NCBI RefSeq assembly: GCF_000371785.1 | Contig: NZ_AQUI01000002.1 | Location: forward strand, 2,893,276 to 2,957,275 | Source: Actinopolyspora halophila DSM 43834 | GTDB taxonomy: Bacteria > Actinomycetota > Actinomycetes > Mycobacteriales > Pseudonocardiaceae | DNA length: 64,000 bases | Reading direction: 5' to 3' | Shown: piece by piece, positions 41,439-60,209 of the stretch | How the letters are laid out: each line of letters starts with the position of its first letter | Numbering within the stretch: position 1 is the first letter of the stretch | Made by a program: the position numbers and the translations under genes | Notes under the pieces: generated by a model | Databases searched by the model: none | What the model saw: only the letters and a program-made list of their open reading frames with translations | Told to the model about the DNA's origin: nothing

Positions 41439-42506
41439 ATGCGAATCACCGACATCGACTGCACCACGCGGCGGTTACCACTGCACGAAACCTGGGACGG
41501 TGGAGTGGACCACCACGACATCCTGATCACCCGGGTGCACACCGACACCGGCCCCACCGGGATCGGCCTCGGATGGACCCCGCTCATCGGAGCGGGGGCG
41601 ATGCGGGCGATCGTCACCGAGGACTGCGCCCCCGTGCTACGCGGACACGTCCCGGACCCCGCTCCACGCTGGCGGCAGCTGTACGACCGACTGCACGAAG
41701 CCGGCCCCGAGGGGATCACCGCGATGGCGCTGGCCTCGATCGACATCGCGCTGTGGGATCTGCGGGCCAAGTCGTTGAATCTGAGCCTGGTCGATCTGCT
41801 CGGCAGGCACCGCGACTCGGTACCCACCTACGCCAGCGGCGTCAATCTGGACAGACCCCTGGACGAACTGCTGGCGCAGGTGCGCGGCATGTTGGAATCG
41901 GGTCACACCGCGCTGAAACTCAAGGTCGGATCAACCGATCCGGAACGCGACGTCGAACGCGTGGGCAGGGTGCGTGAGCTGCTCGGCCCGAGCGGCAGTC
42001 TCATGCTGGACGCCAACCAGCGTTGGGACCTGCCCACCGCCCAACGCGCGATCAACGCCCTGTCCCGGTTCGACCCGCACTGGATCGAGGAGCCGTTACC
42101 CGCCGACGACTTCCCCGCCCATGCGCGGTTGCGTGCCTGCACGAACGTCCCGTTCGCGATCGGCGAGAACCTCCGCGGCGTGCGCCGGTTCCGCGACGCG
42201 CTCACCAGCGGGATCTGCGACGTGGCCCAGCCCAACGTGGTGCGGGTCGGCGGTATCACCCCGTTCCTGCGCATCGCGGAACTCGCCGCCACCTTCGACG
42301 TTCCGGTGGCACCGCACCTGCTGCCGGAGCTGTCCGGTCAACTGGCGTTGTGCGTACCGCTGGCGGGGATGGTGGAAGACATCGACCGGGCAAGCCTGGA
42401 CGATCTCGGAGCACTGGCCCGACCGAGCGGGGTTCGGGTCGACGCGCGCGGTGCCCGCGCCGACACGGCCCCCGGCAACGGGCTGGTTTTCGACCTCTCC
42501 TGCTGA
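41439..42506 (+). CDS. Mandelate racemase/muconate lactonizing-family enzyme (aldarate dehydratase or lactone isomerase)
   Basis: A 355-residue enolase-superfamily protein with an N-terminal capping domain and a C-terminal barrel. Catalytic elements are K160-x-K162 (LKLKV), metal ligands Asp191 (LDANQRW), Glu217 (IEEP) and Glu243 (GEN), and His293 (VAPHLLPE). The Lys and His bases flank the metal site as in MR-subgroup dehydratases and galactarolactone cycloisomerase. In a uronate oxidation pathway this would act right after a uronate dehydrogenase. The exact substrate is an inference. ATG 41439 lies 23 bases after a hairpin. Confidence 0.88.
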   Translation: MRITDIDCTTRRLPLHETWDGGVDHHDILITRVHTDTGPTGIGLGWTPLIGAGAMRAIVTEDCAPVLRGHVPDPAPRWRQLYDRLHEAGPEGITAMALASIDIALWDLRAKSLNLSLVDLLGRHRDSVPTYASGVNLDRPLDELLAQVRGMLESGHTALKLKVGSTDPERDVERVGRVRELLGPSGSLMLDANQRWDLPTAQRAINALSRFDPHWIEEPLPADDFPAHARLRACTNVPFAIGENLRGVRRFRDALTSGICDVAQPNVVRVGGITPFLRIAELAATFDVPVAPHLLPELSGQLALCVPLAGMVEDIDRASLDDLGALARPSGVRVDARGARADTAPGNGLVFDLSC

Positions 42507-47000: not shown

Positions 47001-47061
47001 GCCCGCACCCGGGGCCGGAACCTACTGCCCGGCCCGGGCGATCCGCAGTGGACGCAGCCGG

Positions 47062-47253
47062 TCAGTCGATGCTCAACGCCTGTACGGGGCAGAGCTCCAC
47101 ACCCTGCTCGGCGGCGTCCTCCTTGCCCGTGGGAACCTCTTTTCCCTGCCCGATGTCGCTGTAGCCGTACTCGTCGAGCGTGAACAGCTCCGGATCGACG
47201 ATGTTGCACTGGCCGCGGGCGTCGCACAGCTCGTCGTCCACACTGACTCTCAT
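47062..47253 (-). CDS. Small ferredoxin, P450-type [3Fe-4S]
   Basis: A 63-residue ferredoxin with cysteines in CDARGQC and in the terminal CPVQAL, the spacing of the single-cluster ferredoxins that feed actinobacterial cytochromes P450. The second position of the usual CxxCxxC is replaced (CDARGQC), as in [3Fe-4S] forms. No P450 or reductase is beside it. It lies downstream of, and on the same strand as, the kinase/PLP/DUF364 operon, 211 bases after the PLP gene stop, and so could be the tail of that transcript or independent. A purine-rich GGGAAAGGTGAG stretch precedes its ATG. Confidence 0.88.
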   Translation of the reverse strand: MRVSVDDELCDARGQCNIVDPELFTLDEYGYSDIGQGKEVPTGKEDAAEQGVELCPVQALSID

Positions 47254-47464
47254 GGGGGCTCACCTTTCCCTGGCGGTTACCCGATCCGACACGGACAGCC
47301 TAACGACGCATCCGTCCCGTGTCCGAGCGCACTCCTCGGTGCGGCAGCGGACACTCTCCTCCACGCACCGAGGAAGGGGGCTCTTTTGCGGCGATCACAG
47401 GATTCGACGTCCCCGAAACCGGCAGGACCTACCCGCTCACCGGAAACTCCGACCGTAAGCGGTC

Positions 47465-48475
47465 TCAGCCAGACAGCTCCGGCCCCGGACCGCGGCGGTT
47501 CCACGCCATGCGCGACCACGGACGGCTCAGCTCCTCCCGAGTGAGCACTTCCCGCGGGGCCAGGCTGTCGAGATCGTGCGCCTCGTCGTGTCGGGCGAAG
47601 ACCGAGTCGGTATAGCGGTGCCCGGTATCGGCCGCGATGAACAGCACCGCCCTGTTCCGATTCACCGAGCTCTCCCAGTTCGCCACGAGGTACGCCGCTC
47701 CGCTGGACAGCCCCGCGAACACCGCGTGCCTGCGCAGCAGCTCGACACTTCCGGACAGAGCCGCCTCGAAGGCGGTCCAGTGGATCGTGTCGTACAGACC
47801 GTGCACCACGTTGTCGAACCGGATGGAGCTGCCTATCCCGGCGATGATGATCTCGGGGTCGGCGACGTGCTCACTTCCGAACGTGACACTGCCGAAGGGC
47901 TGCACCCCGACCAGCCGGACGTCGCTCGAACGCTGTCGCAGGTAGACCGCCAGCGCCCCCGTCGAAGCCCCGGAGCCCACCCCACCCACCACTGTCAGCT
48001 CATCGGCACCGAGCTCGCGCACGATGTGGTCGGCCACGGTTCGGTAACCGAGGTAGTGGATGTCGTCGTGGTACTGCCGCATCCAGTGGTACTCGGGATG
48101 CCGCCACAGAATCTCGCGGACACGGCGCACCCGATGGTTCTGGTCGAGTTCGAGACTTCCCGAAGGGGGCATCCGTTCCAACGTCGCGCCCAGCACCTCG
48201 AGCTGCACCCGCAACGTCTCGTCCACGGTCGTCGAGCCGACGATGTAGCACCTCAACCCGAAACGGTGACAAGCCAGGGCCAGCGCATAAGCGTAGATCC
48301 CGCTGGAACTGTCCAGCACGGTGTCCCCGGGCCGCACCCGACCCTGATCGAGCAGGCGTCGTACCGCGGCCAGCGCCGAGACGACCTTCATCGTCTCGAA
48401 TCGAACGCAAAAGACCCGGTCGGTGAGCCGCACCAGGTCCGGGCGACTGATCGCGTCCGCGATGTGCTCGTCCAT
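47465..48475 (-). CDS. Divergent fold-type-II PLP enzyme (cysteine synthase/SbnA superfamily)
   Basis: A 336-residue protein from ATG 48475 (AGGAAGGA eight bases upstream). The fold is that of O-acetylserine sulfhydrylase and SbnA: Lys30 in FETMKVVSA corresponds to the PLP Schiff-base Lys, GVGSGAST (165-172) to the phosphate-binding loop and LSSGAA (255-260) to the conserved SSG of strand 10. The substrate loop normally reading TSGNTG is SSGIYA (57-62), so the amino-acid substrate or reaction differs from ordinary cysteine synthases. Next to an amino-acid kinase, a beta-replacement or elimination on a phospho-amino acid is the likely chemistry (inference). It overlaps the kinase gene by 88 bases and is last in the operon. 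Confidence 0.85.
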   Translation of the reverse strand: MDEHIADAISRPDLVRLTDRVFCVRFETMKVVSALAAVRRLLDQGRVRPGDTVLDSSSGIYAYALALACHRFGLRCYIVGSTTVDETLRVQLEVLGATLERMPPSGSLELDQNHRVRRVREILWRHPEYHWMRQYHDDIHYLGYRTVADHIVRELGADELTVVGGVGSGASTGALAVYLRQRSSDVRLVGVQPFGSVTFGSEHVADPEIIIAGIGSSIRFDNVVHGLYDTIHWTAFEAALSGSVELLRRHAVFAGLSSGAAYLVANWESSVNRNRAVLFIAADTGHRYTDSVFARHDEAHDLDSLAPREVLTREELSRPWSRMAWNRRGPGPELSG

Positions 48476-49416
48476 GTTTCGCGTCCTTCCTGGACGGGAT
48501 AGCTCCTGAACAGGTGGGAGAAGGGAATTCCGTGCCGGTTCAGCGCGCGCACGCACTCCCGCAGCCGATCCCGGAGCTCGGGGGTGTCCGGGTCGAAGAG
48601 CAGCCCCGCGACGTTCCCGCTGTGCGCCACCTGCACACCGGCCGCCTCGACCTCCCCCGCGATCTCCTCGAGCGTGCCCAGCTCCTCCTTGGGCAGCAAT
48701 CGTTGGTTGTGCCGGGCGCTCTCGGTGCTGACCCGCCCGAGCAGCGCCACGTCGGACTCGGCGACGGCCCGCCTGAGCATGCCGCGCAGCCGCTGGAACA
48801 TCCGCACGTCCGCGTCCCGTTCCCCGCCGGATCCGACGCGGAGCGTGTCCACGGTTTCGCCTCCCCCGGTCACACAACCGACCACGATCATCCCGGGCAG
48901 GGACTTGCCGAAACGTTCGAGGACACGGCCCTGGCGCTGGGCGAACAGCAGGGCGTGGTCGTCCAGCATCAACGGATCCGAGGCGCCCTCGGCACGCACG
49001 GCTATCGCGGCGATCGTGTTCCAGGGCAGCGACACCCCGAAACCGGCGGCAACCGCACGGACGGTGGCGATGATGTCGCTGGTCGAAGAGCCCATACCGA
49101 GTCCGAGTGGCACGCTGCTGGTCAGCCGGATCCTTCCTCCGCACGAGCCCCACCGACCACGGCGTCGGCACTCCGCACCGGCCAGCACTCCCGCGGTGGC
49201 GGCCTTGGTCTTCGTCCGCGGGTAGACGCTCAGCTCCTCCGGATCCGTCCCGGGGTCCGGGATGAACTCGGCGCAGACGCCGGGACCGAACACGGGAAGT
49301 GTGGTCAAACCACGGCACAACCGCCCGTCGGAGTCCCGGAACACCCCCTGCAGGATCTCGCCGTGGTGACAGGAGCAGTACCCGAGCACCGTCTCGTGGG
49401 AGAGCGTGTGGTTCAT
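48388..49416 (-). CDS. GHMP-superfamily amino-acid kinase (PduX/L-threonine kinase-like)
   Basis: A 342-residue kinase. ATG 49416 overlaps the DUF364 stop by ATGA. The ATP-binding GHMP motif is PLGLGMGSSTSD (103-114). LGYCSCHHGEILQG at the N-terminus and VQVAHSGNVAGLLFD near the C-terminus match the PduX-like group that phosphorylates L-threonine on its hydroxyl. Thus a serine, homoserine or threonine kinase activity is likely. In the window there are no cobalamin genes, the usual PduX setting, so the phospho-amino acid probably feeds the PLP enzyme encoded next. The last ~29 residues are read in the overlap with that gene and look unlike the rest. Confidence 0.85.
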   Translation of the reverse strand: MNHTLSHETVLGYCSCHHGEILQGVFRDSDGRLCRGLTTLPVFGPGVCAEFIPDPGTDPEELSVYPRTKTKAATAGVLAGAECRRRGRWGSCGGRIRLTSSVPLGLGMGSSTSDIIATVRAVAAGFGVSLPWNTIAAIAVRAEGASDPLMLDDHALLFAQRQGRVLERFGKSLPGMIVVGCVTGGGETVDTLRVGSGGERDADVRMFQRLRGMLRRAVAESDVALLGRVSTESARHNQRLLPKEELGTLEEIAGEVEAAGVQVAHSGNVAGLLFDPDTPELRDRLRECVRALNRHGIPFSHLFRSYPVQEGRETWTSTSRTRSVARTWCGSPTGSFAFDSRR

Positions 49417-50237
49417 GAGTCGACTTTCGGAAGGCGATACCGGTACACGGCCGTGGAATCGGCGCTGAACTGCGAGAACGGGAACGGCTCGGCCAACAGC
49501 GCGGTCACTCCGCTGCCGAGGAAGGCCCGAGCGATGTTGCTCCCCGTCTGGGCGTAGACCACCAACGGCAGCTCCCGGCGGCGGCAGTGCGCGACGATTC
49601 CGTCGAACGTCCCGTTGCCCAGGGTCATTCCCGTGGCGACCACGGCCTCTGCCGCGTGCAGCACCTCGTCGGTGTCGTCGGCGACCGGATCGCCCCACCG
49701 CGTACTGCTCGTGTTGAAGTCGCAGGGCAGACATCTTCCGCCGCGTTCACGGATGGCGGCCACCAGGGGGTCGACCACCCCGATCAGCGCGACGTTCGCG
49801 CCGGAGGAGATCTCCAACAGCCCGGCGATGGCCGCGTCCCGTGACTCGGCCCGACTCTCCGGGGAGCCCGCGGGCAGCACGACTCGCTCGGCACCGGAAC
49901 CCGCGCCGTGCGGTCCGAGCACGCCGAGGTAGGCGTCCAGAGCCGCGATCCGCAGCGGCAGCGACGCGTGGCGCAGCAGCAGATCCAGCGACACCCCCGA
50001 GCACCGTTCGCAGATTCCCGGGTCCAGCTCGGCGGGCTCGAAGGCGCACGCACCGAAGACCGCTCCGACCCGGACCAGCACGTACTGATTGCGGTAAGTC
50101 ACCTCCCCTCCGGCCAGCCGGGTGCCGTGGTGGACCCAGAACACGCTGGTGGCGCTCAGCGATTCGGGCGCGGGGTCCCACTCCCCGCTAAGGGCCCCGT
50201 TCAACAGGGCGTCGACGTCCTCTTCCGCACGGATCAT
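49413..50237 (-). CDS. DUF4213/DUF364 protein ('putative heavy-metal chelation' family)
   Basis: A 274-residue protein. An N-terminal DUF4213-like domain ends with a CERCS pair (Cys76, Cys79), followed by the Rossmann-like DUF364 domain (SGANVALIGVVDPLVAAI, VVATGMTLGNGTFDGIVAHC, PLVVYAQTGSNIARAFL). DUF364 has been named for a suspected heavy-metal-chelation role on the basis of genomic context; no activity is established. ATG 50237 is chosen for the GGGAG before it; the frame stays open to a TTG at 50351 without a ribosome site. The 177-base gap to the upstream binding-protein gene is the only break in the operon. Confidence 0.82.
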   Translation of the reverse strand: MIRAEEDVDALLNGALSGEWDPAPESLSATSVFWVHHGTRLAGGEVTYRNQYVLVRVGAVFGACAFEPAELDPGICERCSGVSLDLLLRHASLPLRIAALDAYLGVLGPHGAGSGAERVVLPAGSPESRAESRDAAIAGLLEISSGANVALIGVVDPLVAAIRERGGRCLPCDFNTSSTRWGDPVADDTDEVLHAAEAVVATGMTLGNGTFDGIVAHCRRRELPLVVYAQTGSNIARAFLGSGVTALLAEPFPFSQFSADSTAVYRYRLPKVDS

Positions 50238-50413
50238 GTTCACTCCCGGAATTCCGGATCCCGCCACCGGCACACCGCTCGAGGGCGTGTTCTCCCACCA
50301 CCGGAAGAACTCGGCGCGCGGAATCCGCACAACAACGACACGACTGGTCAAAAATCGTGCCGGACGAAAATGTCACGAGAATCAGCACAGCGTCACCGCT
50401 GTTTTCCCCGGTT

Positions 50414-51400
50414 TCAGCCCTCGACCGAACGCAGGTATTCGGCGAGTTTCTCCGCGGCCTCCACATTGCGCGGGCCACTCACCGCCGCTCCGTAGTCGAG
50501 GACGTGGAAGCGGTCGTTGCGCACCGCCGGAGTCGAGGACAGCGGCGGGAACGACTTGAGGAACTCGATTTTCTCGGCTACCGGCTTGTCCCCGTAGTCG
50601 ACGACGGTGATCACCTCGGGATCGGACTCGACCACTTTCTCCCAGCCCACGGTGGTCCAGCGCTCCTCGAGCCCGGACAGGACGTTGCGGCCTCCGGCCA
50701 GGGACACGATCGCGTTGGGGGCTGCTTGGTTCCCGGAGGTGAACGGCTCGTCCGTTCCCGAGTCGTAGACGAACACGCTCATGGGATCCTCGGGCCGTTG
50801 CTCGCGCAGCTTCGCCGCACGGGCCTTGAGGTCCCGCACCACCTCCCGCGCACGCTGTTCGACGCGGAAGATCTTCCCGATGTCGATCAGGTCGGTGTAC
50901 AGCGCCTCCAGCGGGGGAACGCTGACCGGGTCGGTGCCGTAGTTGAAACAGCTCTCGGTGTGCTGGTAACTGCGTATTCCGAACCGCTCCAGCTCCTGCG
51001 GGGTGATCCCCCGACCTTCGCTGAAACCGGAGTTCCACCCCGCCAGCACCCAGTCGGCCTTCGCCGACAGCACCACTTCGAGGCTGAGCACATCGGTACT
51101 GAGCGTCTCGACCGACTCGTAGTCCTCCTTCCACGGGGATCTGGCCACCGACCGATCGGCGGTGCTCGGCATGACGATGCCGCGCATCCGGTCGGCCAGT
51201 CCGAGCGCGAACATCTTCTCGGTACTGCTCATGTCGTAGGCCACGGCACGTCGCGGCACCGGGTATTCGATCTCTTCGCCGCAGTTGTCGACGGTCACCG
51301 CGCCGCTCTCCCGCGCGGCGGAGTCGATCTCGGCCCCGCAAGCCGTGGTCAGCAGACACGCGACCAGGCCCGCGGCGAACAGGGGGATGCTCCGGTTCAA
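50414..51400 (-). CDS. Metallophore ABC transporter substrate-binding lipoprotein (FecB/BtuF type)
   Basis: A 328-residue lipoprotein. TTG 51400 overlaps the ATPase stop (TTGA) and follows GGAAGG; the signal peptide LFAAGLVACLLTTAC ends at a lipobox. The mature protein has the two-lobed class III binding fold: RRAVAYDMSSTEKMFALGLADR at the start, LSLEVVLSAKADWVLAGWNS, a long connecting helix, and ITVVDYGDKPVAEKIEFL. Family members carry ferric siderophores, heme or cobalamin. Its place inside the DUF364/kinase/PLP operon suggests it recovers the product of these enzymes loaded with metal. Confidence 0.92.
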   Translation of the reverse strand: MNRSIPLFAAGLVACLLTTACGAEIDSAARESGAVTVDNCGEEIEYPVPRRAVAYDMSSTEKMFALGLADRMRGIVMPSTADRSVARSPWKEDYESVETLSTDVLSLEVVLSAKADWVLAGWNSGFSEGRGITPQELERFGIRSYQHTESCFNYGTDPVSVPPLEALYTDLIDIGKIFRVEQRAREVVRDLKARAAKLREQRPEDPMSVFVYDSGTDEPFTSGNQAAPNAIVSLAGGRNVLSGLEERWTTVGWEKVVESDPEVITVVDYGDKPVAEKIEFLKSFPPLSSTPAVRNDRFHVLDYGAAVSGPRNVEAAEKLAEYLRSVEG

Positions 51401-52188
51401 GGGTGTTTTCCTTCCGTGCTCTCCGGATCGAGCGTGTAGTGCAGCTGGACGACTCCGGTGTCCGGATGTGGCACGACGACCGGAGTCACGCCGAAAACCC
51501 GGTGCACGGCACTCGGAGTGAGCACTTCGGACGGTGTTCCCGCCTCTACCACCGAACCGTCGTGGAAAACGGCGATGCGATCGCAGCAGGCCGCCGCCAG
51601 GTTGAGGTCGTGCAGCGCCACGAGCACCGTGAGGCCACACCCGCGCAGGTAGCTCAGCAGCTCCACCTGGTGCCGCACGTCGAGGTGGTTGGTGGGCTCG
51701 TCGAGCACGAGCACGCTCGGCTGCTGGACCAGGGCCCGCGCGATCATCACGCGCTGACGTTCTCCGCCGGACAGCGAGAGCAGGCCACGCTCGGCCAGGT
51801 GGTTGGTGTCGGTTCGACGCAGGGCGGCACGGCACAGCGCCTCCACCGAATCCCCGGCCCCCCGGGGATCGCGCGGATGCGGAAAACGCCCCATCGCCAC
51901 CGTTTCGAACACGGTGAAGTCGAGATCGGCGCCGTTGTCCTGGGTGACCGCGGCTATCATGCGGGCGCTTTCCCGCAGCGGAAGAGCGGCCAGGTCCGTG
52001 TCGTCGAGCCACACCCTTCCCGAGCTCGGTCGAACCGCCCGGTAGAGACACCGCAGCGCGGTGGACTTGCCGCTGCCGTTCGGGCCGATCAAACCGAGCA
52101 CCTCGCCGTTGAACGCCTGCAGCGTCAGGTCGTGCACCAGTGCCCTTCCCGCCTTGCGGACCGAGATCTCCTCGAGCGTCACGCGCAT
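51397..52188 (-). CDS. Metallophore ABC transporter ATP-binding protein (FecE type)
   Basis: A 263-residue ATPase. Walker A GPNGSGKST, Q loop AVTQDNGA, signature LSGGERQRV, Walker B VLVLDEPTNHLD and the switch VALHDLN are all intact. The layout matches FepC/FecE-type siderophore ATPases. ATG 52188 lies one base after the permease stop. The C-terminus extends into a GVTPVVVPHPDTG segment, common in this group. It energises the FecCD permease next to it. Confidence 0.95.
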   Translation of the reverse strand: MRVTLEEISVRKAGRALVHDLTLQAFNGEVLGLIGPNGSGKSTALRCLYRAVRPSSGRVWLDDTDLAALPLRESARMIAAVTQDNGADLDFTVFETVAMGRFPHPRDPRGAGDSVEALCRAALRRTDTNHLAERGLLSLSGGERQRVMIARALVQQPSVLVLDEPTNHLDVRHQVELLSYLRGCGLTVLVALHDLNLAAACCDRIAVFHDGSVVEAGTPSEVLTPSAVHRVFGVTPVVVPHPDTGVVQLHYTLDPESTEGKHP

Positions 52189-52189
52189 G

Positions 52190-53266
52190 TCAGTGGCCTC
52201 CGAACAGGTAACCGTTCCGGCGCAGCAGCACGACGAACACCGGAACACCGATCAACGCGGTGACCACGCCCAACGGCAGCTCGCGCGGTGCGAACAGCGT
52301 CCGGGACAACAGGTCCACCCAGACCAGCAGGATCGCCCCGGCAGGCGGGGCGACGGCGAGCACGCGGCGGTGCCCCGGCCCGGCCACGATGCGCGCGAGA
52401 TGCGGCATGACCAGTCCGACGAAACCGACCGCACCGCTGACCGCCACCAGCACGCCGGTCACCAGCGCGGTCAACGCGAACAGGTTCCTGCGCAGCGCTG
52501 TCGCGTCCACGCCGAGGCTCGCCGCCGCCTCGTCCCCGAGGGACAACACGTCCATCCGGGCACTGCTGCGCTGGAGCACGATCAGCGCCACCGCCACCGA
52601 GAGCGTCGCCAGCGGCAACGCCCCCCAAGTCGCTCCGCCCAAGCTGCCCATGAGCCAGAACAGCACGGACCGGGCGGTTTCCCCGCGGGGAGCGAAGAAC
52701 ACGATCATGCTCATCAGGGCCTGGAACGCGTAGGCCAGGGCCACCCCCACCAGCACCAACCGCAGCGGTGTGAGTCCCGCCGCGGTGCGGGCGGCCAGAT
52801 ACACCAGAACGGAGGCGCCCAACGCGGTCAGGAAGGACGCCGTCGACAGGGCGTAGACCCCCAGACCGACGAACAGCCCCAAGGAGGAGACGGCGCTGGC
52901 TCCCACCGAGGCCCCGGAGGAGATCCCCAGGATGAACGGATCGGCCAGCGGATTGCGCACCAGCGCCTGCACCGCGACACCGATGACGCTCAGTCCGGCT
53001 CCGACCACCGCTGCCAGCAGTACGCGGGGCGCGCGTACCTGCCAGACGATCGAGTACTCGGCCACCTCGGTGGAATCGATCGTGCCTCCCGTCAGCGCGG
53101 CCCCCAGGTACCGGACGGTGTCCTCGATCGGAACGGCCGTCGGCCCCAGCGCGATCCCGAGCAGCAACGACAGGAGCAGTACCGGAATCAGCGTCGACAC
53201 CACCGGTGTCAGTCCCGGTCTCGTTCGCACACCGGTCGACGTGGAACGAGGTCTCGAGCGAAGCAC
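52190..53266 (-). CDS. Metallophore ABC transporter permease (FecCD family)
   Basis: A 358-residue permease with about ten transmembrane helices of the BtuC/FecCD type: VRAPRVLLAAVVGAGLSVIG, GVAVQALVRNPLADPFILGISSGAS, and the helix-loop GAVGFVGLVMPHLAR that contacts the ATPase. One permease gene is present, so it presumably acts as a homodimer. GTG 53266 is chosen as GGAGGA lies six bases upstream; the ORF can begin at 53311 without such a site. First gene of the import/biosynthesis operon, about 90 bases from a Zur-type box. Confidence 0.94.
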   Translation of the reverse strand: MLRSRPRSTSTGVRTRPGLTPVVSTLIPVLLLSLLLGIALGPTAVPIEDTVRYLGAALTGGTIDSTEVAEYSIVWQVRAPRVLLAAVVGAGLSVIGVAVQALVRNPLADPFILGISSGASVGASAVSSLGLFVGLGVYALSTASFLTALGASVLVYLAARTAAGLTPLRLVLVGVALAYAFQALMSMIVFFAPRGETARSVLFWLMGSLGGATWGALPLATLSVAVALIVLQRSSARMDVLSLGDEAAASLGVDATALRRNLFALTALVTGVLVAVSGAVGFVGLVMPHLARIVAGPGHRRVLAVAPPAGAILLVWVDLLSRTLFAPRELPLGVVTALIGVPVFVVLLRRNGYLFGGH

Positions 53267-53355
53267 GCACCGTCCTCCTCGAAAAGCATCACTTGCCCGG
53301 GTGACCAACAAACCCCACCCGAACGCACTGCGTTACACCTCGATAATAATAATAA

Positions 53356-53370
53356 TGAAAATCATTTTCG
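53356..53370 (-). promoter_or_regulatory. Zur-type operator before the permease/biosynthesis operon
   Basis: TGAAAATCATTTTCG, a 7-1-7 palindrome with 13 of 14 arm bases paired, set in an AT-rich run (53343-53370) 90 bases before the permease start. The sequence matches at all but the last base the actinobacterial Zur consensus TGAAAATNATTTTCA. Iron control in actinobacteria normally uses the different DtxR/IdeR box, so zinc is the more likely signal. A TATTAT immediately downstream on the minus strand could be the -10. Confidence 0.75.
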
Positions 53371-53474
53371 TCTAGACCGTCCAAGACGAGACCGTGATCA
53401 CACCTCGCCGAGCGAAAGCCCCGCTTCGTCCAGCCGGGACACCGAGGCTCCGCACCCGACAGGGATCATGTTTT

Positions 53475-53489
53475 TGAAAATGATTATCA
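53475..53489 (+). promoter_or_regulatory. Zur-type operator before the MFS exporter
   Basis: TGAAAATGATTATCA, differing from the consensus TGAAAATGATTTTCA by one base and 67 bases before the exporter start. A TTGAAA -35-like hexamer begins one base upstream of it, so repressor binding would cover the promoter. Confidence 0.75.
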
Positions 53490-53555
53490 TAAGCATATGC
53501 GTCCACGGGCGCGCTCCGGAACGGACAGACACCGCACAGCACGATCGGAGTCACC

Positions 53556-54803
53556 ATGACCACGACCGCGGAACCGAACACGTCCCCATCGCCCCCACCA
53601 CGGAAATCCGTGCTGCTCGACAGTGGTTTCCTGCGCCTCTGGGTCGGTTCCACGGCCTCCGGGATGGCCACGTGGGCCCTTCCCTTCGTCCTCGGCCTCG
53701 CGGTGCTGCGCACGACGCTGACCCCCGCCGAGATCGGACTGCTGCTCGCCACGCGCACCGCGGGGTTCCTGGTGGCCGTTCCACTGGGCGGCGTGTGGAC
53801 CGACCGGCACTCCGCACGCGGAGTCGTCCTCGTCTCCGGCGCACTCGCCGCGGCGGCGACACCGGTGATCGCGATGGGCATGGGCGAGTCCACACTCCTC
53901 ACCGCCTGCGCCGCCACCGTGGTCGGTGCAGGCCAGGGCACCACGCGTCCCGCCTACCAGGCGTTGACCGCCGAAGTGGTCGACGAGGCCCGACGTCAGC
54001 AGGCCAACGCCGCGCGAACGCTCTCCGTGCGCGTGACCACGCTGGTGGCTCCCGGCAGCACCGCACTGCTGGCCACAGTGCTCAGCGTGCGGTGGCTGCT
54101 GCTGATCACCGCCTCGCTCTGGCTGGTGTCCGCGCTCGCTCCCCCCAGGGGCACGCTCCCCGGCCGCGCGGGGGAGCATCCCCCCGGCATCATCGGCGGA
54201 TTCGTCGATGGACTGCGCGAAGCCCGCCGCCACCCGTGGTTCCCGGCCGGGTTGGCCGCGTTGAGCACTGTGATCACCTTCGGTTACTCGACGACCAGCG
54301 TCGTTCTGCCCATGATCAGCCGGGACCGCTACGGAACCGAATTCGTGCTCGCGGGAGCGCTGACCGCCTACACCGCGGGAGCCCTTCTCGGGGCGGTGAT
54401 CATCGCTCGTTGGCGCCCGCGTTCCCAGGGGTGGGCGGCCCTGGGCGCGCTGGCCTGCTACGGGTTCGCCCCGCTGACCCTGCTTCTTCCCGTCCCGGCC
54501 GTCGTGGTCTTCGCTGGTTACGCGGTGGCCGGAGTCGGCATCGAACTGTTCAACGTCCCCTGGTTCACGGCCACCCAGCGCGAGGTCGATCCCCGACTGC
54601 TGGGCCGGGTGTCCTCGCTGGACTTCCTCGTCTCCTACGGGCTCGCTCCACTCGGCCTGGCACTGATCGGGCCGGCGGTCGAGCACCTCGGAACCACCTG
54701 GGTGCTCGGCACCAGCGCGCTGCTGTGCTGCGCGGTTCCCGCGCTGGTCGCCACGGCACCGGGAACCCGGCACTTCTCACGAAACCCCGTGCGCACCGGC
54801 TAG
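53556..54803 (+). CDS. MFS transporter, EntS-like, probable metallophore exporter
   Basis: A 415-residue, 12-helix MFS protein of the EntS/multidrug-like class. It starts SGFLRLWVGSTASGMATWALPF, and the motif A loop reads GGVWTDRHSARG. Relatives export siderophores such as enterobactin. It is transcribed away from the import/biosynthesis operon and its promoter carries its own Zur-type box, so it would be induced together with it. That points to export of the product made by the PLP, kinase and DUF364 proteins. ATG 53556 follows GGAGTC. Confidence 0.88.
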   Translation: MTTTAEPNTSPSPPPRKSVLLDSGFLRLWVGSTASGMATWALPFVLGLAVLRTTLTPAEIGLLLATRTAGFLVAVPLGGVWTDRHSARGVVLVSGALAAAATPVIAMGMGESTLLTACAATVVGAGQGTTRPAYQALTAEVVDEARRQQANAARTLSVRVTTLVAPGSTALLATVLSVRWLLLITASLWLVSALAPPRGTLPGRAGEHPPGIIGGFVDGLREARRHPWFPAGLAALSTVITFGYSTTSVVLPMISRDRYGTEFVLAGALTAYTAGALLGAVIIARWRPRSQGWAALGALACYGFAPLTLLLPVPAVVVFAGYAVAGVGIELFNVPWFTATQREVDPRLLGRVSSLDFLVSYGLAPLGLALIGPAVEHLGTTWVLGTSALLCCAVPALVATAPGTRHFSRNPVRTG

Positions 54804-54946
54804 CACGAGCCCCGCGCCGTTCGCACCGCCGAGATCCGCTCCCCGGGAAGCGTCCCGTCCACCTGAGAAACACCGCCCAACCCGCTGTTCGCCGCGACCC
54901 GACAGCTGCGCGGACGGTCCGCTGTCACCGGGAGGACGGAGACGGC

Positions 54947-55603
54947 TCAGGAGGGCAGCTGGCTGATCGCGGCCAGCTTGGCGTGCTGGACGTGCACCCG
55001 CACGATCGCCGCGACCATGGAGGCATCGCCCGCCGCGCAGTGGGCGACCAGCTGGTGGTGCTCGTTGCGGGCCTGCTCGTTGCGCTGCCCGGTGGTGGCG
55101 AGATTGATGTAGCGCTCGCAGGTGTGCCAGAGCATCCGCACGTGCCGTTGCATGGTTCCCTCGCCGAGGCTGGCGAACATGGCGAAGTGGAACGCGCGAT
55201 GCGCCCGGAGCTTCTCGGCACGGTCCCCGTCGGGTTCGAGGGCGTCGAGCCGGTCGAGTTCGGTTCTCATGGCCTCGGCGACACCGAGGTGGTCGTCCCG
55301 CACCGCCCGTTCCGCGGCCATGACCTCGAGAGTCTCCAGCAACCGGAAGCAGTCCTCGAGCTCCTGCTGGTGCAAGGGGCTGACCACGGCTCCCCGATGT
55401 GGATACATCTCGACCAACCCCTCGGCGACCAGCTCGCGAAAGGCCTCCCGAAGCGGCACCCGACTGACGTCCAGCTCGTTGACGAGCGTGTCCACCCGCA
55501 GCCGGGTACCGGGTGGGTAGTTGCCGAGCACGATGCGCTGTCGGATCTGATCGGCGACGATGTCGGTCCGTGTCTCGGCCGCACCTTCTTCGGCTCGGCT
55601 CAC
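54947..55603 (-). CDS. GntR-family transcriptional regulator (FadR/FCD subgroup)
   Basis: A 218-residue regulator. The winged helix is DIVADQIRQRIVLGNYPPGTRL with DVSRVPLREAFRELVAEGLV; an all-helical FCD ligand domain follows with metal-type His residues (RAHRAFHFAMF, HTCERYINL, EHHQLVAHC). GTG 55603 follows AGGAGG. It lies 68 bases after the NicX-like gene on the same strand and so is probably the last gene of the catabolic operon and its regulator. The effector is likely an aromatic or dicarboxylic intermediate. Confidence 0.9.
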   Translation of the reverse strand: MSRAEEGAAETRTDIVADQIRQRIVLGNYPPGTRLRVDTLVNELDVSRVPLREAFRELVAEGLVEMYPHRGAVVSPLHQQELEDCFRLLETLEVMAAERAVRDDHLGVAEAMRTELDRLDALEPDGDRAEKLRAHRAFHFAMFASLGEGTMQRHVRMLWHTCERYINLATTGQRNEQARNEHHQLVAHCAAGDASMVAAIVRVHVQHAKLAAISQLPS

Positions 55604-55671: not shown

Positions 55672-56700
55672 CTACCGGCCCGCGGGCCGCATGTCCGGCA
55701 CCACGACGTCGCCACCGCGCACGACCGGCTCGTCGTCGAGGTAGAGGTCGCAGTCCCGCATGGGGATGTCGAAGTGGCACGGGGTGTCGTTCGGGCCACC
55801 GAGCTCGTTGTTCGGCCCGATGGAGAACATCACGTTGCCGTACACCGCTCGGGGTTCCATCCCCATCCCTCCGGGGAAGGTGGGCGGGAGCAGGCCGTGC
55901 CAGTACGCGTGCTGGTTCAACCCCCAACCGACGTGCGACATGCCGTAGCCACGGGGATCGTCGAAGGACTCGATGTAGGACGACAGCAGCTTCGCGTCCA
56001 GCTCCCCGCGGATGTCGGTGATGAAACCCTGCTCCACGGTGATCTCCACCGGGGAACGCACGAAACTGTTGAACGGCAACAGCACGTCACCGGGCGAGAG
56101 CACGATCCTGCCGTCCACCCCCTCGTCGGTCCCGCCGGTGAACACGAAACCGGACGGCCAGTGGTCCCAGCGCCCCGGCTCGTCGGTGTAGCCGTACTCG
56201 GTCACCGCCGGATACCGGCCGAGCTGGTAGACGACGTCGGTGCCGAGCGCGTTGGTGAACCGCAACGTGGAGGACTTGGTGAGCAGCTCCTGGCCGACCT
56301 CGACCCGTTCCCGCAGCTCCCGCGTGGGGAACAACCGGGCGAGCAGTTCGACCGGTTCGACGGTGGTCAGAATTCGGGTGCCGGTGTTCTGCACCGCGAA
56401 CTGCTCCTCCGAGAACAGCAGGAAGACCAGGTCCACGACCATGTCCGCGCGCTTGAGCGCTTCGACGGCCTCGGGATTGGCCGCGAGTCCGGAGTCGCCG
56501 ACCGACCAGTTGCCGCCGCTGCTCTCGGGGGCGGGCAACCGGAGATGATAGGTGTGCGCGCCGAGCGAGCGCGCCGCGGACAGGAACGCGTCCGCGTATT
56601 CCAACCGCTCGTTGCCCTGGGAGAGGACGACCACGCGCTCCTCCTCGTGCACGGCGCTGAGCTCGAGCTGTTTACGGCACAGTTCGGTGAGGAATTCCAT
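55672..56700 (-). CDS. nicX: 2,5-dihydroxypyridine 5,6-dioxygenase-like (NicX, M29-like fold)
   Basis: A 342-residue protein of the thermophilic-aminopeptidase-like fold used by NicX. Landmarks are VVVLSQGNERLEYADAF, ANPEAVEALKRADMVVDL, ITVEQGFITDIRGELDA, SHVGWGLNQHAYW and CHFDIPMRDCDLYLDDE with the HxD metal site. NicX is an iron enzyme that opens the ring of 2,5-dihydroxypyridine to N-formylmaleamate. The four genes upstream encode exactly the following steps, which supports NicX rather than an aminopeptidase. ATG 56700 lies 27 bases after the hydrolase stop. Confidence 0.85.
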   Translation of the reverse strand: MEFLTELCRKQLELSAVHEEERVVVLSQGNERLEYADAFLSAARSLGAHTYHLRLPAPESSGGNWSVGDSGLAANPEAVEALKRADMVVDLVFLLFSEEQFAVQNTGTRILTTVEPVELLARLFPTRELRERVEVGQELLTKSSTLRFTNALGTDVVYQLGRYPAVTEYGYTDEPGRWDHWPSGFVFTGGTDEGVDGRIVLSPGDVLLPFNSFVRSPVEITVEQGFITDIRGELDAKLLSSYIESFDDPRGYGMSHVGWGLNQHAYWHGLLPPTFPGGMGMEPRAVYGNVMFSIGPNNELGGPNDTPCHFDIPMRDCDLYLDDEPVVRGGDVVVPDMRPAGR

Positions 56701-56727
56701 GGTTTCGACCCTTCGGAATCGTTCGGT

Positions 56728-57540
56728 TCAGCGCTCGTCGACGACGGCGAGCGCGTTGTCGACGGCGGCGCGGAAGCCGTCGAAGTTGTCCCACGGCACC
56801 ATGTGTCCTGCCGCGGTAACGGTGCTGATCGGCACGTCCGGGTTGCTCTCGGCGAGTTCGCGCACCCCCGAGTCGGACACCACGGGGCTCTCCGCCCCGC
56901 GGATCAACGCGACGCTCCCGCTGAGCCGTCGCCAGTACGCGAAGAAGTCCTCCCGCTCGAAACCCTCGTGGGTTTCCACCACGGCGGTGCGGTCGCAGGT
57001 GGACAGCACTCGCGCGCGCAGTTCCAGCTCCCGTCGGGGCCACTTCGGGTAGTACTTGCCGACCTCGTCCGCCGTGGTGCCGCGGGCCGCCTCGTCGAGC
57101 TGGGCCAAAAACGCCGCACGACTGGTCGGGTAGGGATCCCGACCGGGCCCGGAAAGCGGTGGGTCGACCAGCAGCAGCGGGCTTCGCCCTGCACCGTGCC
57201 GGACCCGGTACGCGGCGGCGATCCTGGCGCCGAGCGAGTGTCCGAGCAGGACCGGGTCCCGCAGCCCCAGGGCCTCCACCAGCCCGGCGACGTCGTCGGC
57301 GTAGTGCTCCAGGGTGTAATGGCCCGCGGGTGGTGTGTCGGTGCCGCCGCGCCCGCGCAGGTCCGGAACGTGGACGCGGTAACGCTCGGCGAGCCGGCAC
57401 GCGATGAACTCGGCCGTGATCGCGGGGCTGGTGATCCCAGGCAGGATCAGCAGCGGTGTGCCGTCCCTCCCGTAGGAAAGGAGGTGGTGCCGCAGCCCGT
57501 TCGCGTGCACGTATTCGCTCGTGCCAACGGTTTCCGTCAT
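56728..57540 (-). CDS. nicD: N-formylmaleamate deformylase-like alpha/beta-hydrolase (NicD)
   Basis: A 270-residue alpha/beta-hydrolase. It has LLILPGITSPAITAEF (oxyanion region), VPDLRGRGGTDTPPAGHY, the nucleophile elbow LLGHSLGARIA, and the C-terminal His in AAGHMVPWDN. The length and the RGRGGTD segment resemble NicD, which removes formate from N-formylmaleamate. ATG 57540 overlaps the monooxygenase stop (ATGA). Position between ring cleavage and maleamate hydrolysis makes the assignment good, although this fold is functionally broad. Confidence 0.83.
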   Translation of the reverse strand: MTETVGTSEYVHANGLRHHLLSYGRDGTPLLILPGITSPAITAEFIACRLAERYRVHVPDLRGRGGTDTPPAGHYTLEHYADDVAGLVEALGLRDPVLLGHSLGARIAAAYRVRHGAGRSPLLLVDPPLSGPGRDPYPTSRAAFLAQLDEAARGTTADEVGKYYPKWPRRELELRARVLSTCDRTAVVETHEGFEREDFFAYWRRLSGSVALIRGAESPVVSDSGVRELAESNPDVPISTVTAAGHMVPWDNFDGFRAAVDNALAVVDER

Positions 57541-58745
57541 AGTTGTGCCTCCGCACCGGGGAGCCCGTCGAGGGGCGGTCCGATGTAGTTCTCCGCGAAG
57601 TTCCGCGCGTAGGCGGGCGAGTTCCGCAGCTGCCACAGCCGGGACTGCTGCAGCTTCTGCCGGAAGGCCGCGTCCGGCGAGTCGGACGGGTAGTAGGTGT
57701 GCATCATGTGCAGCAACGCGTGACTGAATTCCTGGGCCTTCCAGATGTCCGGAACCCGTCGCTGCGAATACCGGTCCAGTTCGGCCTCGTCACCGGAGCG
57801 CAGGTGCCGCACGACGGTGTCGGCGAACTCGGCCGCGTCCGCGATGGCGAGGTTCATCCCTTTGCCCCCGGAAGGGGTGATGACGTGCGCGGCGTCCCCG
57901 AGCAGGAAGATCCGGCCGTGGCGCATCGGCTCGATGACCCGGCTCTCCATCTCCAGGATGTTCTTGCTGAAGATATCGCCCTCGTTCAGGGTCCATCCGG
58001 GTTTGGCCAGCCTGGTTCGCAGCTCCGTCCAGATGCGCTCGTCCGGCCAGTCCTCGATCGTGTCGCCGAACGGGACCTGCAGGTGGAAGCGGGTCACGGT
58101 GTCCGAACGCAACAAGTGACCGGCGAAGCCGTTCTCGTGCTGGGCGTAGATCGTGTGCTCCGCGGAGGGCTCGGCGTGGGCGAGCAGGGTCAACCAGCGG
58201 AACTCGTGCTGCATGGTGTACTCGGTGACCGCCTCGGCGGGAACGCCGTGCTTGCCGGCACCGTGCTGCCCGTCGGCGCCCGCGGCGTAGTCCGCCCGGA
58301 ACACCGCCCCGCCCACGCACTCGACCACGACGTGGCCGGACTCCTCGCGCACCGATTCCACCGTGGTGGCGTAGTGCACGGTCCCGCCCGCCGCCTCGTA
58401 GGCGTCGAGCAGATCGGTGACGATCTCCTGCTGCGGGTACACCCAGTGCGGTGTCCCGCCGTAGTGCGCGGAGTAATCGGTGAAGAAGCTCGTTCCCGCG
58501 GAACGGAACTCGCAGCCACGGTGCACGGTGCCTTCCGCGTAGAGGCGGGAGGCCAAACCGTGCCTGTCGAGCAGTTCGACCGTGCGGTGCTCGAGCAGTC
58601 CGGCCCGCGCACGGCCCACGATCTGCTCCCGGGTGTAGCGGTCGAGCACGACCGTGTCGACTCCCCGCGCTCGCAGCAGGTTGGCCACCGTCAATCCGGC
58701 CGGGCCCGCCCCGAGGATCGCAACCGTGGTGTCAGTGCTCGACAC
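57537..58745 (-). CDS. FAD-dependent aromatic-ring monooxygenase, PobA-like
   Basis: A 402-residue group A flavoprotein hydroxylase. VAILGAGPAGLTVANLL is the FAD fold; RARAGLLEHRTVELLDRHG, WVYPQQEIVTDLL, YAAGADGQHG, DWPDERIWTEL, FLLGDAAHVITPSGGKGMN and FAENYIG follow p-hydroxybenzoate hydroxylase (PobA) along its whole length. PobA needs NADPH and hydroxylates ortho to a ring hydroxyl. In this operon it would supply 2,5-dihydroxypyridine, for instance from 6-hydroxynicotinate as NicC does, or from a hydroxypicolinate (inference). GTG 58745 follows GAGGAGG and overlaps the maleate isomerase by 14 bases. Confidence 0.87.
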   Translation of the reverse strand: MSSTDTTVAILGAGPAGLTVANLLRARGVDTVVLDRYTREQIVGRARAGLLEHRTVELLDRHGLASRLYAEGTVHRGCEFRSAGTSFFTDYSAHYGGTPHWVYPQQEIVTDLLDAYEAAGGTVHYATTVESVREESGHVVVECVGGAVFRADYAAGADGQHGAGKHGVPAEAVTEYTMQHEFRWLTLLAHAEPSAEHTIYAQHENGFAGHLLRSDTVTRFHLQVPFGDTIEDWPDERIWTELRTRLAKPGWTLNEGDIFSKNILEMESRVIEPMRHGRIFLLGDAAHVITPSGGKGMNLAIADAAEFADTVVRHLRSGDEAELDRYSQRRVPDIWKAQEFSHALLHMMHTYYPSDSPDAAFRQKLQQSRLWQLRNSPAYARNFAENYIGPPLDGLPGAEAQL

Positions 58746-59478
58746 GACGCACCTCCTCGTCGAGTGCCGCACCACCGGCCGGGATCCGTGTGGAGTTTCC
58801 GGTGGCGCGGAGCAGTTCACGCGCCGTCGCGGTCGCCGCGGTGACCACGGGCAGGCCGAGCGCGCGCTGGACCGGTTCCACGCCGGACAGGGACGGCATC
58901 TGCACGCAGGCGGACAGCACGACCCCGTCCGCCCGCGTCCTGTCGAGCCTTTCGGCCAGTTCGGGCAATCGCGCGGGGTCGAGCCTGCCGACCTCCCGGT
59001 TGTCCGCGACACCGAGACTGAGCGAGTCGACCACCGTGATCCCGTATCCGTTCAGGTATTCCAGCACCATCCCGGTCAACGCGGGCACGTACGGCGCGAC
59101 CACGGCCACGTTGCGCATGTCCAGGTCGAGCAGGGTGCGTACGAGCGCACCCGCACTGCTGACAACCGGGCACGGCGCCTCGTGTCGAGTGGTGACGGCG
59201 CCGAGTTCCCGTTCGACGCGCTCGTGCGCACCGGGACCTTCGGCCATCAGCGCGATGAGGCACGCATAACCGATGACGTCCATCCCCGCGTCGGCGAGTT
59301 CGCCGGCGCACCGGTCGCCTTCGCCGACCATCGCGTGCAACGATTCCGCGTCGACGTTGTGCAGTGCCGCGCGGCTGGAATGGTATGTACGGTCCTCGTG
59401 GCCCAGCAACGCCGGGATTTCCGTTTCCATGGTGACGTTCGAGCTCGGCACGATGAGCCCGATCCGCTGCGTTGTCAT
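58732..59478 (-). CDS. nicE: Maleate cis-trans isomerase (NicE/MaiA)
   Basis: A 248-residue Asp/Glu-racemase-superfamily protein. VPSSNVTMETEIPALL is the signature of maleate isomerases; the two catalytic cysteines are in GYACLIALM (first half) and SACVQMPSLSG (second half). The enzyme converts maleate to fumarate by transient addition of a Cys thiolate. ATG 59478 overlaps the amidohydrolase stop (ATGA). It links the pyridine pathway to the citric acid cycle. Confidence 0.93.
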   Translation of the reverse strand: MTTQRIGLIVPSSNVTMETEIPALLGHEDRTYHSSRAALHNVDAESLHAMVGEGDRCAGELADAGMDVIGYACLIALMAEGPGAHERVERELGAVTTRHEAPCPVVSSAGALVRTLLDLDMRNVAVVAPYVPALTGMVLEYLNGYGITVVDSLSLGVADNREVGRLDPARLPELAERLDRTRADGVVLSACVQMPSLSGVEPVQRALGLPVVTAATATARELLRATGNSTRIPAGGAALDEEVRRVEH

Positions 59479-60113
59479 GCTGCTCCGTGGAGATAGGTGA
59501 GCGCGTCGTCGAGCTCGACGACGTCGCCGTACTTGGCCTGGATGTCGAAGAGTCCGGCCCGGTGTGGTTCCGCGGCGCGGTCCCCCACGCAGTCGGAGAC
59601 CACCAGGGTCGGATAGCCGTACTGCACCGCGTCCACCACGCTCGCCCGGACACAGCCGCTGGTGGTCGTTCCGCAGATCAGCAGGGTGTCCACCCGTGAG
59701 TTCACCAGCCGTGCGACGAGATCGGTGCCGAAGAAAGCGCTCGCCGCGCGTTTCTCCAGCAGCGGTTCGTCAGCGCTCCTGCCGAGGCGGGAGTCCAGTT
59801 CGACCAGCGGCGTCCCGCGCCGCAGGTCCCCGAAGCCCGGTGCTTTGCGCAGCCACGCGGTGGTCTCCCCCTTCTCGAAGACGATCGTGGTGAACAGGAT
59901 CGGTGCTCCCGTCACACGAGCGGACTCCAACAGCCGGGCCGTGGCGGCGAGTTCGTCGTCCAGGTCCGCGCCGATCCGACTCGCCGGATCGGTGAAGCCG
60001 GAAGTGAAATCCACGACCAGCACCGCCGGTCGGGTGCCACGGAGCACGGGCTCCCCGATCCCCGCTCGCCGATAACGCTCCGCGGCGTCGGCGTGCTCGG
60101 TGTCTGTGCCCAC
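59475..60113 (-). CDS. nicF: Maleamate amidohydrolase-like isochorismatase-family enzyme (NicF)
   Basis: A 212-residue cysteine hydrolase. AVLVVDFTSGFTDP has the catalytic Asp, LRKAPGFGDL the Lys region and TTTSGCVRASVVDA the nucleophilic Cys. LLEKRAASAFFGTDL is another conserved block. The length and the FTSGFTDP wording match maleamate amidohydrolases, which yield maleate and ammonia. GTG 60113 lies six bases after AAGGAGG. It is the first gene of the catabolic operon and has a well-formed promoter upstream. Confidence 0.9.
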   Translation of the reverse strand: MGTDTEHADAAERYRRAGIGEPVLRGTRPAVLVVDFTSGFTDPASRIGADLDDELAATARLLESARVTGAPILFTTIVFEKGETTAWLRKAPGFGDLRRGTPLVELDSRLGRSADEPLLEKRAASAFFGTDLVARLVNSRVDTLLICGTTTSGCVRASVVDAVQYGYPTLVVSDCVGDRAAEPHRAGLFDIQAKYGDVVELDDALTYLHGAA

Positions 60114-60181: not shown

Positions 60182-60209
60182 CGCTTCTAACACGAGGTTA
60201 TTCTCAGCC

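Follow-up and report, generated by a model that had tools for sequence, protein, structure and literature searches.

A conserved gene set with Zur-type boxes, pairing a divergent DUF364 protein with an SbnA-like PLP enzyme, as a probable zincophore system in actinomycetes

A compact operon and a divergent MFS gene at positions 47465 to 54803 of the window, the 64,000-nucleotide stretch of the Actinopolyspora halophila DSM 43834 genome analyzed here, probably form a Zur-repressed zincophore system. In this system, a ligand would be made by a PLP enzyme together with a DUF364 protein and exported, and its zinc complex would be reimported. The gene set, with its Zur-type boxes, occurs in many soil actinobacteria. 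The initial annotation had proposed that three enzymes alone make an exported and reimported zinc ligand; its Zur-type control and its link to an importer and an exporter hold up, and the sufficiency of the three enzymes and the function given to DUF364 are not supported as stated.

The operon lies on the minus strand in the order FecCD-type permease (52190 to 53266; PF01032, 278 bits), ABC importer ATPase (51397 to 52188; PF00005, 111.5 bits), FecB/Peripla_BP_2 substrate-binding lipoprotein (50414 to 51400; PF01497, 68 bits), DUF364 protein (49413 to 50237), GHMP-family kinase (48388 to 49416; PF00288, 44.8 bits), and PLP fold-type II enzyme (47465 to 48475; PF00291, 112 bits). In the open reading frames as used, the binding protein and ATPase overlap by 4 bases, DUF364 and the kinase by 4, and the kinase and PLP enzyme by 88; these overlaps suggest a single coupled operon. 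The divergent gene (53556 to 54803, plus strand; PF07690, MFS_1) encodes a presumed exporter that scored 132 bits against TIGR00900, under that model's cutoff of 319.6. All of these components and the Zur-type boxes, as listed in the initial annotation, were recovered by a Pfam scan covering 19 window genes and a motif search. The reported absence of the usual metallophore makers was likewise borne out: the 19 genes included no NRPS, IucA/C, opine, or lyase family, PF00206 and PF02423 both being absent.

Box 1 (TGAAAATCATTTTCG, 53356 to 53370) lies inside a promoter-like site of the operon (TAGACG-17-TATTAT, 53374 to 53346 on the minus strand), a consensus match that is the only such site between 53200 and 53620. 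Box 2 (TGAAAATGATTATCA, 53475 to 53489) is 66 bases ahead of the MFS start codon. The pattern GAWAATNATTWTC has two perfect sites in the whole 5.35-Mb genome, both in the promoter region shared by the operon and the MFS gene, and the reversed-pattern control has none. Allowing one mismatch gave six genome sites, one of them preceding a ZnuA gene (PF01297, 185 bits), 93 bases from its called start. For TGANNATNATNNTCA at no more than one mismatch, there were three window matches versus 0.13 expected, the third being an overlapping register of box 2. The shared promoter region thus matches the actinobacterial 7-1-7 Zur box as a motif. The ChIP-derived Streptomyces Zur motif given in the available text of PMC5472717, tGaNNatSatNNtCa, fits box 2 fully and box 1 with one mismatch. 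Three FUR-family genes are present in the genome, one beside an ArsR-family gene and one beside a catalase gene. The ArsR-adjacent gene is also near undecaprenyl-diphosphate synthase and class II tRNA synthetase genes, which we take to be the usual actinobacterial zur setting, and is a candidate zur on that basis.

Conservation was assessed in 80 named loci selected on PLP-enzyme similarity. After four loci without a testable upstream region were dropped, 64 of the 76 remaining relatives had a Zur-type box ahead of the gene set, versus 0.2% of shuffles; together with the two perfect boxes in the window, this supports the predicted Zur-type control. Flank-based counts dropped 15 of the 80 loci with too little flank. 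Among the remaining 65, a FecCD-type permease (one of two types) was found in 60, an MFS gene in 64, and a box of at least 11/14 in 59. The same annotation would have been contradicted by enzymes found mostly away from metal transporters; they are instead conserved together with importer and exporter. All nine congeners sampled have the trio, the importer, the MFS gene, and a box at no more than one mismatch. DUF364 loci with no box of 11/14 were L041, L044, L069, L082, L104, L107, and L119 (best 10), as well as L182, L253, and L256. The named loci, relatives, and class sample of 394 actinomycete genomes share genomes (L066 = L031, L136 = L040, L124 = L188, and L078 = L183), so the counts of the three sets are not independent.

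The window DUF364 protein belongs to a divergent subfamily. It scored 43 bits against PF04016 (gathering cutoff, 23) and gave no match to PF13938, the DUF4213 N-terminal domain, which is present in L215 and L216. It has PF04016 and a G-x-T/S-x-x-N-x-T/S stretch in common with canonical DUF364/DUF4213 proteins (Dhaf4260, PDB 3L5O). Unlike these, it lacks a match to DUF4213, and its subfamily clusters with a PLP fold II gene in 30 of 30 cases sampled in the 394 actinomycete genomes. The 30 cases fall into two cluster types, usually boxed. Boxes were found in 16 of 17 DUF364-PLP clusters of the window type (4 of 21 such class loci, G534, G483, G512, and G761, being left out of the count), in 7 of 9 clusters with ATP-grasp, DUF364, and PLP genes, and in none of 10 PLP/ATP-grasp clusters without DUF364. 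Clusters of the window type usually include a kinase and a FecBCD importer; those of the second type combine DUF364 and the PLP enzyme with an ATP-grasp ligase, an epimerase-family enzyme, a methyltransferase, and an Opp-type importer. All nine second-type DUF364 proteins hit the subfamily profile with E ≤ 1e-63; G219, G186, and L213 exceed the PF04016 cutoff (33.9, 28.4, and 27 bits), and L250 has no PF04016 match at E ≤ 1e-5. Because the pair is boxed in two distantly related cluster types, and because the PLP lineage without DUF364 is also unboxed, we give an even chance to the reading that DUF364 and the SbnA-like enzyme are the portable two-enzyme core of an undescribed zincophore class, with DUF364 as a new ligand-building enzyme. 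The kinase is a dispensable part of the system. Several boxed loci have DUF364 and the PLP enzyme but no kinase, and a methyltransferase gene occurs in 33 of 99 loci, both at odds with three enzymes acting alone.

The likely chemistry is suggested by the PLP enzyme, for whose family profile SbnA is the nearest solved structure, although its score against the SbnA model TIGR03945 (134.4 bits) is far under the cutoff of 349.95. The available text of PMC12414870 names Lys47 of SbnA and O-phosphoserine-selecting residues that include Arg132, Tyr152, and Ser185. Lys47, Arg132, and Tyr152 correspond to K30, R115, and Y135, which, like Q134, are invariant in 20 aligned sequences, and Ser185 corresponds to G167; two of the three selecting residues are kept in the family, and the third is Gly. 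The GHMP kinase (model pLDDT, 86.1) is probably a PduX-like amino-acid kinase, being a GHMP-family member with close relatives in B12 clusters; relatives 42 to 43% identical stand directly after CobU-family genes. Since kinase-free loci exist, O-phosphoserine would be favored over an L-threonine kinase route.

When zinc is short, Zur would leave both boxes and both transcripts would start, as motif and position suggest. The kinase would phosphorylate L-serine (or L-threonine), and in loci without a kinase O-phosphoserine would be supplied by primary metabolism. The PLP enzyme would then swap the phosphate for the amino group of another amino acid, in one or possibly several rounds; the N-(2-amino-2-carboxyethyl) amino acid formed would have an ethylenediamine-carboxylate core, like the products of AMA synthase and SbnA. 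The final ligand would be an aminopolycarboxylate resembling aspergillomarasmine or EDDS. DUF364, acting with the PLP enzyme, would most likely complete or further condense this product, which is the least certain part of the scheme. The MFS protein would export the ligand, and the binding protein, FecCD permease, and ATPase would take up the zinc complex. If true, this would be a widespread route to zinc-binding metabolites that dispenses with the marker enzymes known from the metallophore classes compared here. Within a protein family without known function, one subfamily would also gain a biosynthetic role open to testing, and product, zinc control, and enzyme order would become checkable in two named cluster types.

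The same genes could be read as a Zur-controlled uptake and processing system, in which a foreign zinc ligand is imported and then modified or degraded by the kinase, PLP enzyme, and DUF364 to free zinc, and the MFS protein exports the waste. Of six canonical DUF364 loci, four have FecCD/ATPase genes no more than about 4 kb away and none has the kinase or PLP enzyme, so DUF364 could act after import, and elimination is also possible for PLP fold II enzymes. (The box control for canonical loci was uninformative, with boxes in 4 of 5 loci but also in 9 of 15 shuffles.) However, the kinase and the residues kept in the PLP enzyme favor chemistry on O-phospho-amino acids. Moreover, DUF364 lies closer to the enzymes than to the importer (fewer than 200 bases separate it from the kinase or PLP gene in 61 of 63 loci, and from an importer gene in only 31), and DUF364 and the PLP enzyme stay constant while the importer changes between two FecBCD types and an Opp type. 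We therefore regard uptake and processing as unlikely. The different company of canonical DUF364/DUF4213 genes also means that the expectation of the initial annotation, that this context would give DUF364 a function, does not carry over from the divergent subfamily of the window.

The AlphaFold model of the window DUF364 protein has a pLDDT of 90.8. Searched against the PDB by sequence profile, the protein matched 3npg, itself a DUF364 protein (E = 0.00024), and weakly an aminotransferase. An NAD-dependent, opine-dehydrogenase-like enzyme was weighed; no glycine-rich dinucleotide motif was seen in DUF364, and the glycine loop reads LIGVVDPLV, not GxGxxG. According to the available part of PMC4046660, a Serratia DUF364 gene adjoins the prodigiosin cluster. 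A full-text literature search, with EDDS and EDHA gene papers outside its scope, returned in the text available no link of DUF364 to metallophore clusters beyond a suggestion in the 2010 DUF364 structure paper (PMC2954201).

It is also conceivable, but quite improbable, that the product of the enzymes is a diamino acid (Dap or 2,3-diaminobutyrate) destined for another pathway, DUF364 standing in for SbnB or argininosuccinate lyase at the release step; the link to zinc would then be secondary. Support comes from five distant PLP loci: the kinase is present in four of them, lyase genes belonging to a single family (PF00206/ASL_C2, from a scan of L049) in four, and NRPS-like or ATP-grasp genes, identified by a scan or by clustering with a scanned gene, in three. 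Against it, no NRPS or ligase gene is present among the 19 Pfam-scanned window genes, and the importer, exporter, and boxes stay linked to the enzymes across loci.

The ligand might instead serve iron or another metal, as an EDHA-like siderophore. Siderophores or corrinoids are the usual cargo of FecBCD-type importers, FecE and EitC are among the NCBIfam neighbors of this importer, and EDHA, reportedly an aminopolycarboxylate siderophore, offers a precedent. Yet the IdeR/DmdR consensus reaches at best 10/19 in window positions 47001 to 55000, where Zur-type boxes were found instead. Iron control was rejected on this absence of an IdeR-like site, and we consider a metal other than zinc very unlikely. 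Salvage of a cofactor or precursor (F420-0, pterin, or corrinoid-like) is the least probable reading, and a very unlikely one: the top importer matches in NCBIfam are the "putative F420-0 transporter" models TIGR03868/03869/03873, relatives of the PduX-like kinase adjoin CobU-family genes, and flavin/pterin chemistry was proposed for DUF364 in the available text of PMC2954201, but the F420-0 scores are all far below cutoff (176 versus 392, 292 versus 437, and 260 versus 372 bits), for which F420-0 salvage was rejected, the PLP enzyme and exporter would have no evident role, and control appears to be of the Zur type.

The proposed zincophore system has several known counterparts. In Amycolatopsis japonicum, the [S,S]-EDDS (aes) cluster is Zur controlled, according to the available parts of PMC6103462 and PMC9252823, and its product is an amino-acid-derived aminopolycarboxylate; the window system, likewise from an actinomycete, would share this control and this kind of product. 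The kinase-DUF364 pair is a feature of the window met in none of the EDDS descriptions available. Compounds of the AMA and EDDS kind attract interest both as biodegradable chelators and as inhibitors of metallo-beta-lactamases. EDDS and EDHA clusters have an argininosuccinate-lyase-like or SbnB-like partner; such partners are absent from the window cluster genes, EDDS being compared here by description and not by sequence. Aspergillomarasmine A synthase is a fungal PLP enzyme. As described in the available text of PMC8319579, AMA synthase alone converts O-phospho-L-Ser units and L-Asp to a Zn2+-selective chelator, with no kinase, DUF364, Zur, or importer mentioned there; the likeness drawn here is one of chemistry. 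The SbnA/SbnB route to staphyloferrin B likewise combines O-phosphoserine supply, for which it includes a gene, with PLP-dependent replacement, according to the available text of PMC12414870. Staphyloferrin B, however, is an iron siderophore, and the window cluster has no SbnB-like gene and a PLP enzyme under the TIGR03945 cutoff. Staphylopine and pseudopaline are small amino-acid opine metallophores with an exporter and an ABC importer, an arrangement like that proposed for the window. Nicotianamine-synthase-like and opine dehydrogenase families are absent from the 19 scanned window genes, unlike in those systems, and the Opp-type importer of the second cluster type is a point shared with them.

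The cluster at window positions 47465 to 54803 lies in a 5.35-Mb actinomycete genome. Its minus-strand operon runs from a FecCD permease gene through genes for an ATPase, a binding lipoprotein, a DUF364 protein, and a GHMP kinase to that of a PLP fold II enzyme, with some neighboring genes overlapping by 4 and 88 bases; an MFS gene on the plus strand is divergent from it. Two Zur-type palindromes (53356 to 53370 and 53475 to 53489) lie between the operon and the MFS gene, and box 1 is inside the sole promoter-like site found in 53200 to 53620, on the operon side. The palindromes were compared with the Zur ChIP motif, tGaNNatSatNNtCa, given in PMC5472717.

When the host genome was searched with GAWAATNATTWTC, two perfect sites were recovered, both in the region of this cluster, along with six one-mismatch sites; the reversed-pattern control gave none. 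One of the six (in own-genome stretch L061) is followed, 93 bases on, by the called start of a gene for ZnuA (PF01297, 185 bits), which has an ATPase gene after it. Inspection by eye revealed no zinc link among the genes near the other five. Of three FUR-family genes in the genome, one adjoins a catalase gene. Another adjoins an ArsR-family gene, with genes for a class II tRNA synthetase and undecaprenyl-diphosphate synthase nearby, and is a candidate zur by analogy with the M. tuberculosis locus. The best IdeR-like match in 47001 to 55000 reached 10 of 19 consensus positions.

The PLP enzyme was found at E ≤ 1e-30 in 23 of 61 genomes, its own included, and in all 10 genomes of the genus; the 9 other members of the genus each have the trio of DUF364, kinase, and PLP genes, the importer, the MFS gene, and a box that has no more than one mismatch. 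A contig collection contained 477 stretches encoding a PLP relative. The best 80, which were kept, come mostly from Streptomyces, with others from Nocardiopsis, Saccharopolyspora, Amycolatopsis, Kitasatospora, Thermocrispum, and further genera; the nearest named source among them is Actinopolyspora biskrensis (96%). The named loci (L-numbers) were chosen by PLP similarity, and the locus sets overlap. Among the 65 with enough flank for gene-content counts, DUF364 is present in 63, the kinase in 64, the MFS gene in 64, and a FecCD permease in 60 (type A in 26, type B in 33, and both in 1, assigned by identity above 50%). A box matching at least 11 of 14 positions occurs in 59, all among the 63 with DUF364. 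A stricter test, which masked matched coding sequence and took in only the 400 bases ahead of cluster genes, gave such boxes in 64 of 76 loci versus 0.2% of 1,520 shuffle rounds. The 12 failures comprise five short contigs (L071, L089, L090, L110, and L133), two loci without DUF364 (L132 and L136), and five loci that do carry the full trio: L069, L104, L107, and L119, with a best box of 10, and L082, with 8 in this test and 10 in its whole stretch. In L041 and L044, relatives from other genera, the best box is also only 10.

An alignment search with DUF364 as the anchor gave matches at E ≤ 1e-8 in 30 of 394 actinomycete genomes, and in all 30 a PLP fold II gene is in the same cluster (about 2 kb from DUF364 in genome G729, of the window type). 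Twenty-one clusters are of the window type, and nine are of a second type, ordered ATP-grasp ligase, DUF364, PLP, MR/MLE-family enzyme, MFS. The DUF364 of this type is more distant, scoring above the Pfam cutoff in three cases examined and giving no Pfam match in L250. This operon (L250:8004-19341, also L212, L213, and L251 to L256), followed in L250 by a methyltransferase gene and an Opp-type importer, possibly represents a second zincophore class.

Comparison of cluster types, counting boxes with 11 or more matches out of 14 anywhere in the available stretch, revealed boxes in 16 of 17 window-type loci (all but L182, whose stretch is cut off at 14 kb) and 7 of 9 second-type loci, where they are 39 to 91 bases upstream of the first gene. 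None was found in 10 PLP loci with ATP-grasp but no DUF364 (L178 spans only 4.4 kb, and the ATP-grasp match in L181 is weak) or in 5 distant PLP loci. Shuffling of entire loci produced a box in 0 of 51, 0 of 27, 1 of 30, and 0 of 15 cases, respectively. Canonical DUF364 loci had boxes in 4 of 5 cases, a count that is uninformative because their shuffles gave 9 of 15. In a tree of 40 hand-picked PLP enzymes, for which the program warns of long branches meeting, nine of the ten DUF364-free ATP-grasp rows form a supported clade nested inside the window's clade, and the remaining row, L181, sits on a long branch; the second DUF364 type is far from the window's clade, beside a lyase group. The tree and the box counts therefore indicate that DUF364 and Zur-type boxes travel together in two separate PLP lineages and that both are absent from the ATP-grasp lineage.

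Several variants were also observed. In L040, L043, L045, L132, L174, L175, and L177 to L179, ATP-grasp ligases replace DUF364 beside a window-type PLP gene, without Zur-type boxes; most of these loci have a methyltransferase gene, and some have FecBCD. L176:7612-16425 combines DUF364, PLP, and an intervening PhyH-family oxygenase gene with an Opp-type importer; a 13-of-14 Zur-type box is about 70 bases from the start of the gene for the importer's binding protein. Palindromes matching 14 of 14 occur at L215:8549-8563 and L218:6246-6260, near a gene that looks by eye like a flavin reductase, in canonical DUF364/FecCD loci, where chance matches are frequent.

SbnA is the closest solved structure to the PLP family profile. 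Its Lys47, Arg132, and Tyr152 align with K30, R115, and Y135, none of which varies across the 20 sequences aligned (the window sequence among them). The O-phosphoserine-selecting residues of SbnA are given as Arg132, Tyr152, and Ser185 in PMC12414870; the Ser185 position is G167 here, and the enzyme falls outside the SbnA model. Two genomes from a different class have kinase relatives (42 to 43% identity) downstream of CobU, histidine-phosphatase, and class I/II aminotransferase family genes (families assigned by scanning in L053 and by clustering in L054). Because its relatives follow these genes, the kinase is likely a PduX-like amino-acid kinase. DUF364 and PLP genes are adjacent with no kinase match in L044, L140, L190, and L191; the PhyH-family gene separates them in L176, and L173 has an unassigned ORF (10436 to 11386) at a possible kinase position. 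In the five genomes with kinase-less loci that were searched, a threshold of E ≤ 1e-10 gave no kinase match for G015, G700, G799, and G682; the match in G590 belongs to a different cluster of that genome. By gene content, then, the kinase is dispensable. Its lack in some loci favors O-phosphoserine, a compound that is also supplied by primary metabolism, as in the staphyloferrin B pathway. Elsewhere, L185:15013-15718 holds a second, split kinase match (60% and 52%) about 5 kb past the cluster, and L052:5926-14037 has an odd, biosynthetic-looking series of PLP, L-amino acid ligase, and PduX-like kinase genes, then tRNA_deacylase, formyltransferase, and tRNA-synt_1d family genes.

The window's DUF364 protein (predicted structure pLDDT, 90.8) matches PF04016 and gives no DUF4213 match; DUF4213 is present in both canonical proteins scanned. 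Of 63 loci, 61 have the DUF364 gene within 200 bases of the kinase or PLP gene, and 31 have it that close to an importer gene. Among canonical loci L214 to L219, FecCD/ATPase matches are within about 4 kb in 4 of 6 (L215 to L218), and kinase or PLP matches are found in none. The constant pairing with PLP, which persists in loci with an importer from a different family (L044, L176, and L250), favors a role for DUF364 in synthesis, the alternative being a step after import. An MTS-like methyltransferase gene, absent from the window's cluster, is found in 33 of 99 loci examined (20.8 to 23 bits; Pfam cutoff, 23); among full-flank loci with DUF364, it occurs in 14 of 25 of type A and 2 of 33 of type B.

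PMC8319579 describes AMA as a Zn2+-selective chelator and states that AMA synthase, with no other enzyme, joins O-phospho-L-Ser units to L-Asp; EDDS is described as under Zur control in PMC6103462 and PMC9252823. In the simplest reading, the kinase and PLP enzyme would make an aminopolycarboxylate of the AMA/EDDS kind, DUF364 would complete it, the MFS protein would export it, and FecBCD would reimport the zinc complex. The likeness to AMA and EDDS is one of proposed chemistry and, for EDDS, of Zur control; the product, metal, and regulation of this cluster are predictions. The importer belongs to none of its best-matching models. Full-text searches gave no link between DUF364 and a metallophore cluster beyond the suggestion of a 2010 structure paper, which is not the same as the link being new. 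Outside the cluster, window positions 55672 to 63685 and 41439 to 42506 encode catabolic-looking FAD-binding, arylmalonate-decarboxylase-like, and PdxA-family proteins and an MR/MLE enzyme, and a GntR/FCD regulator gene is at 54947 with catabolic-looking neighbors.
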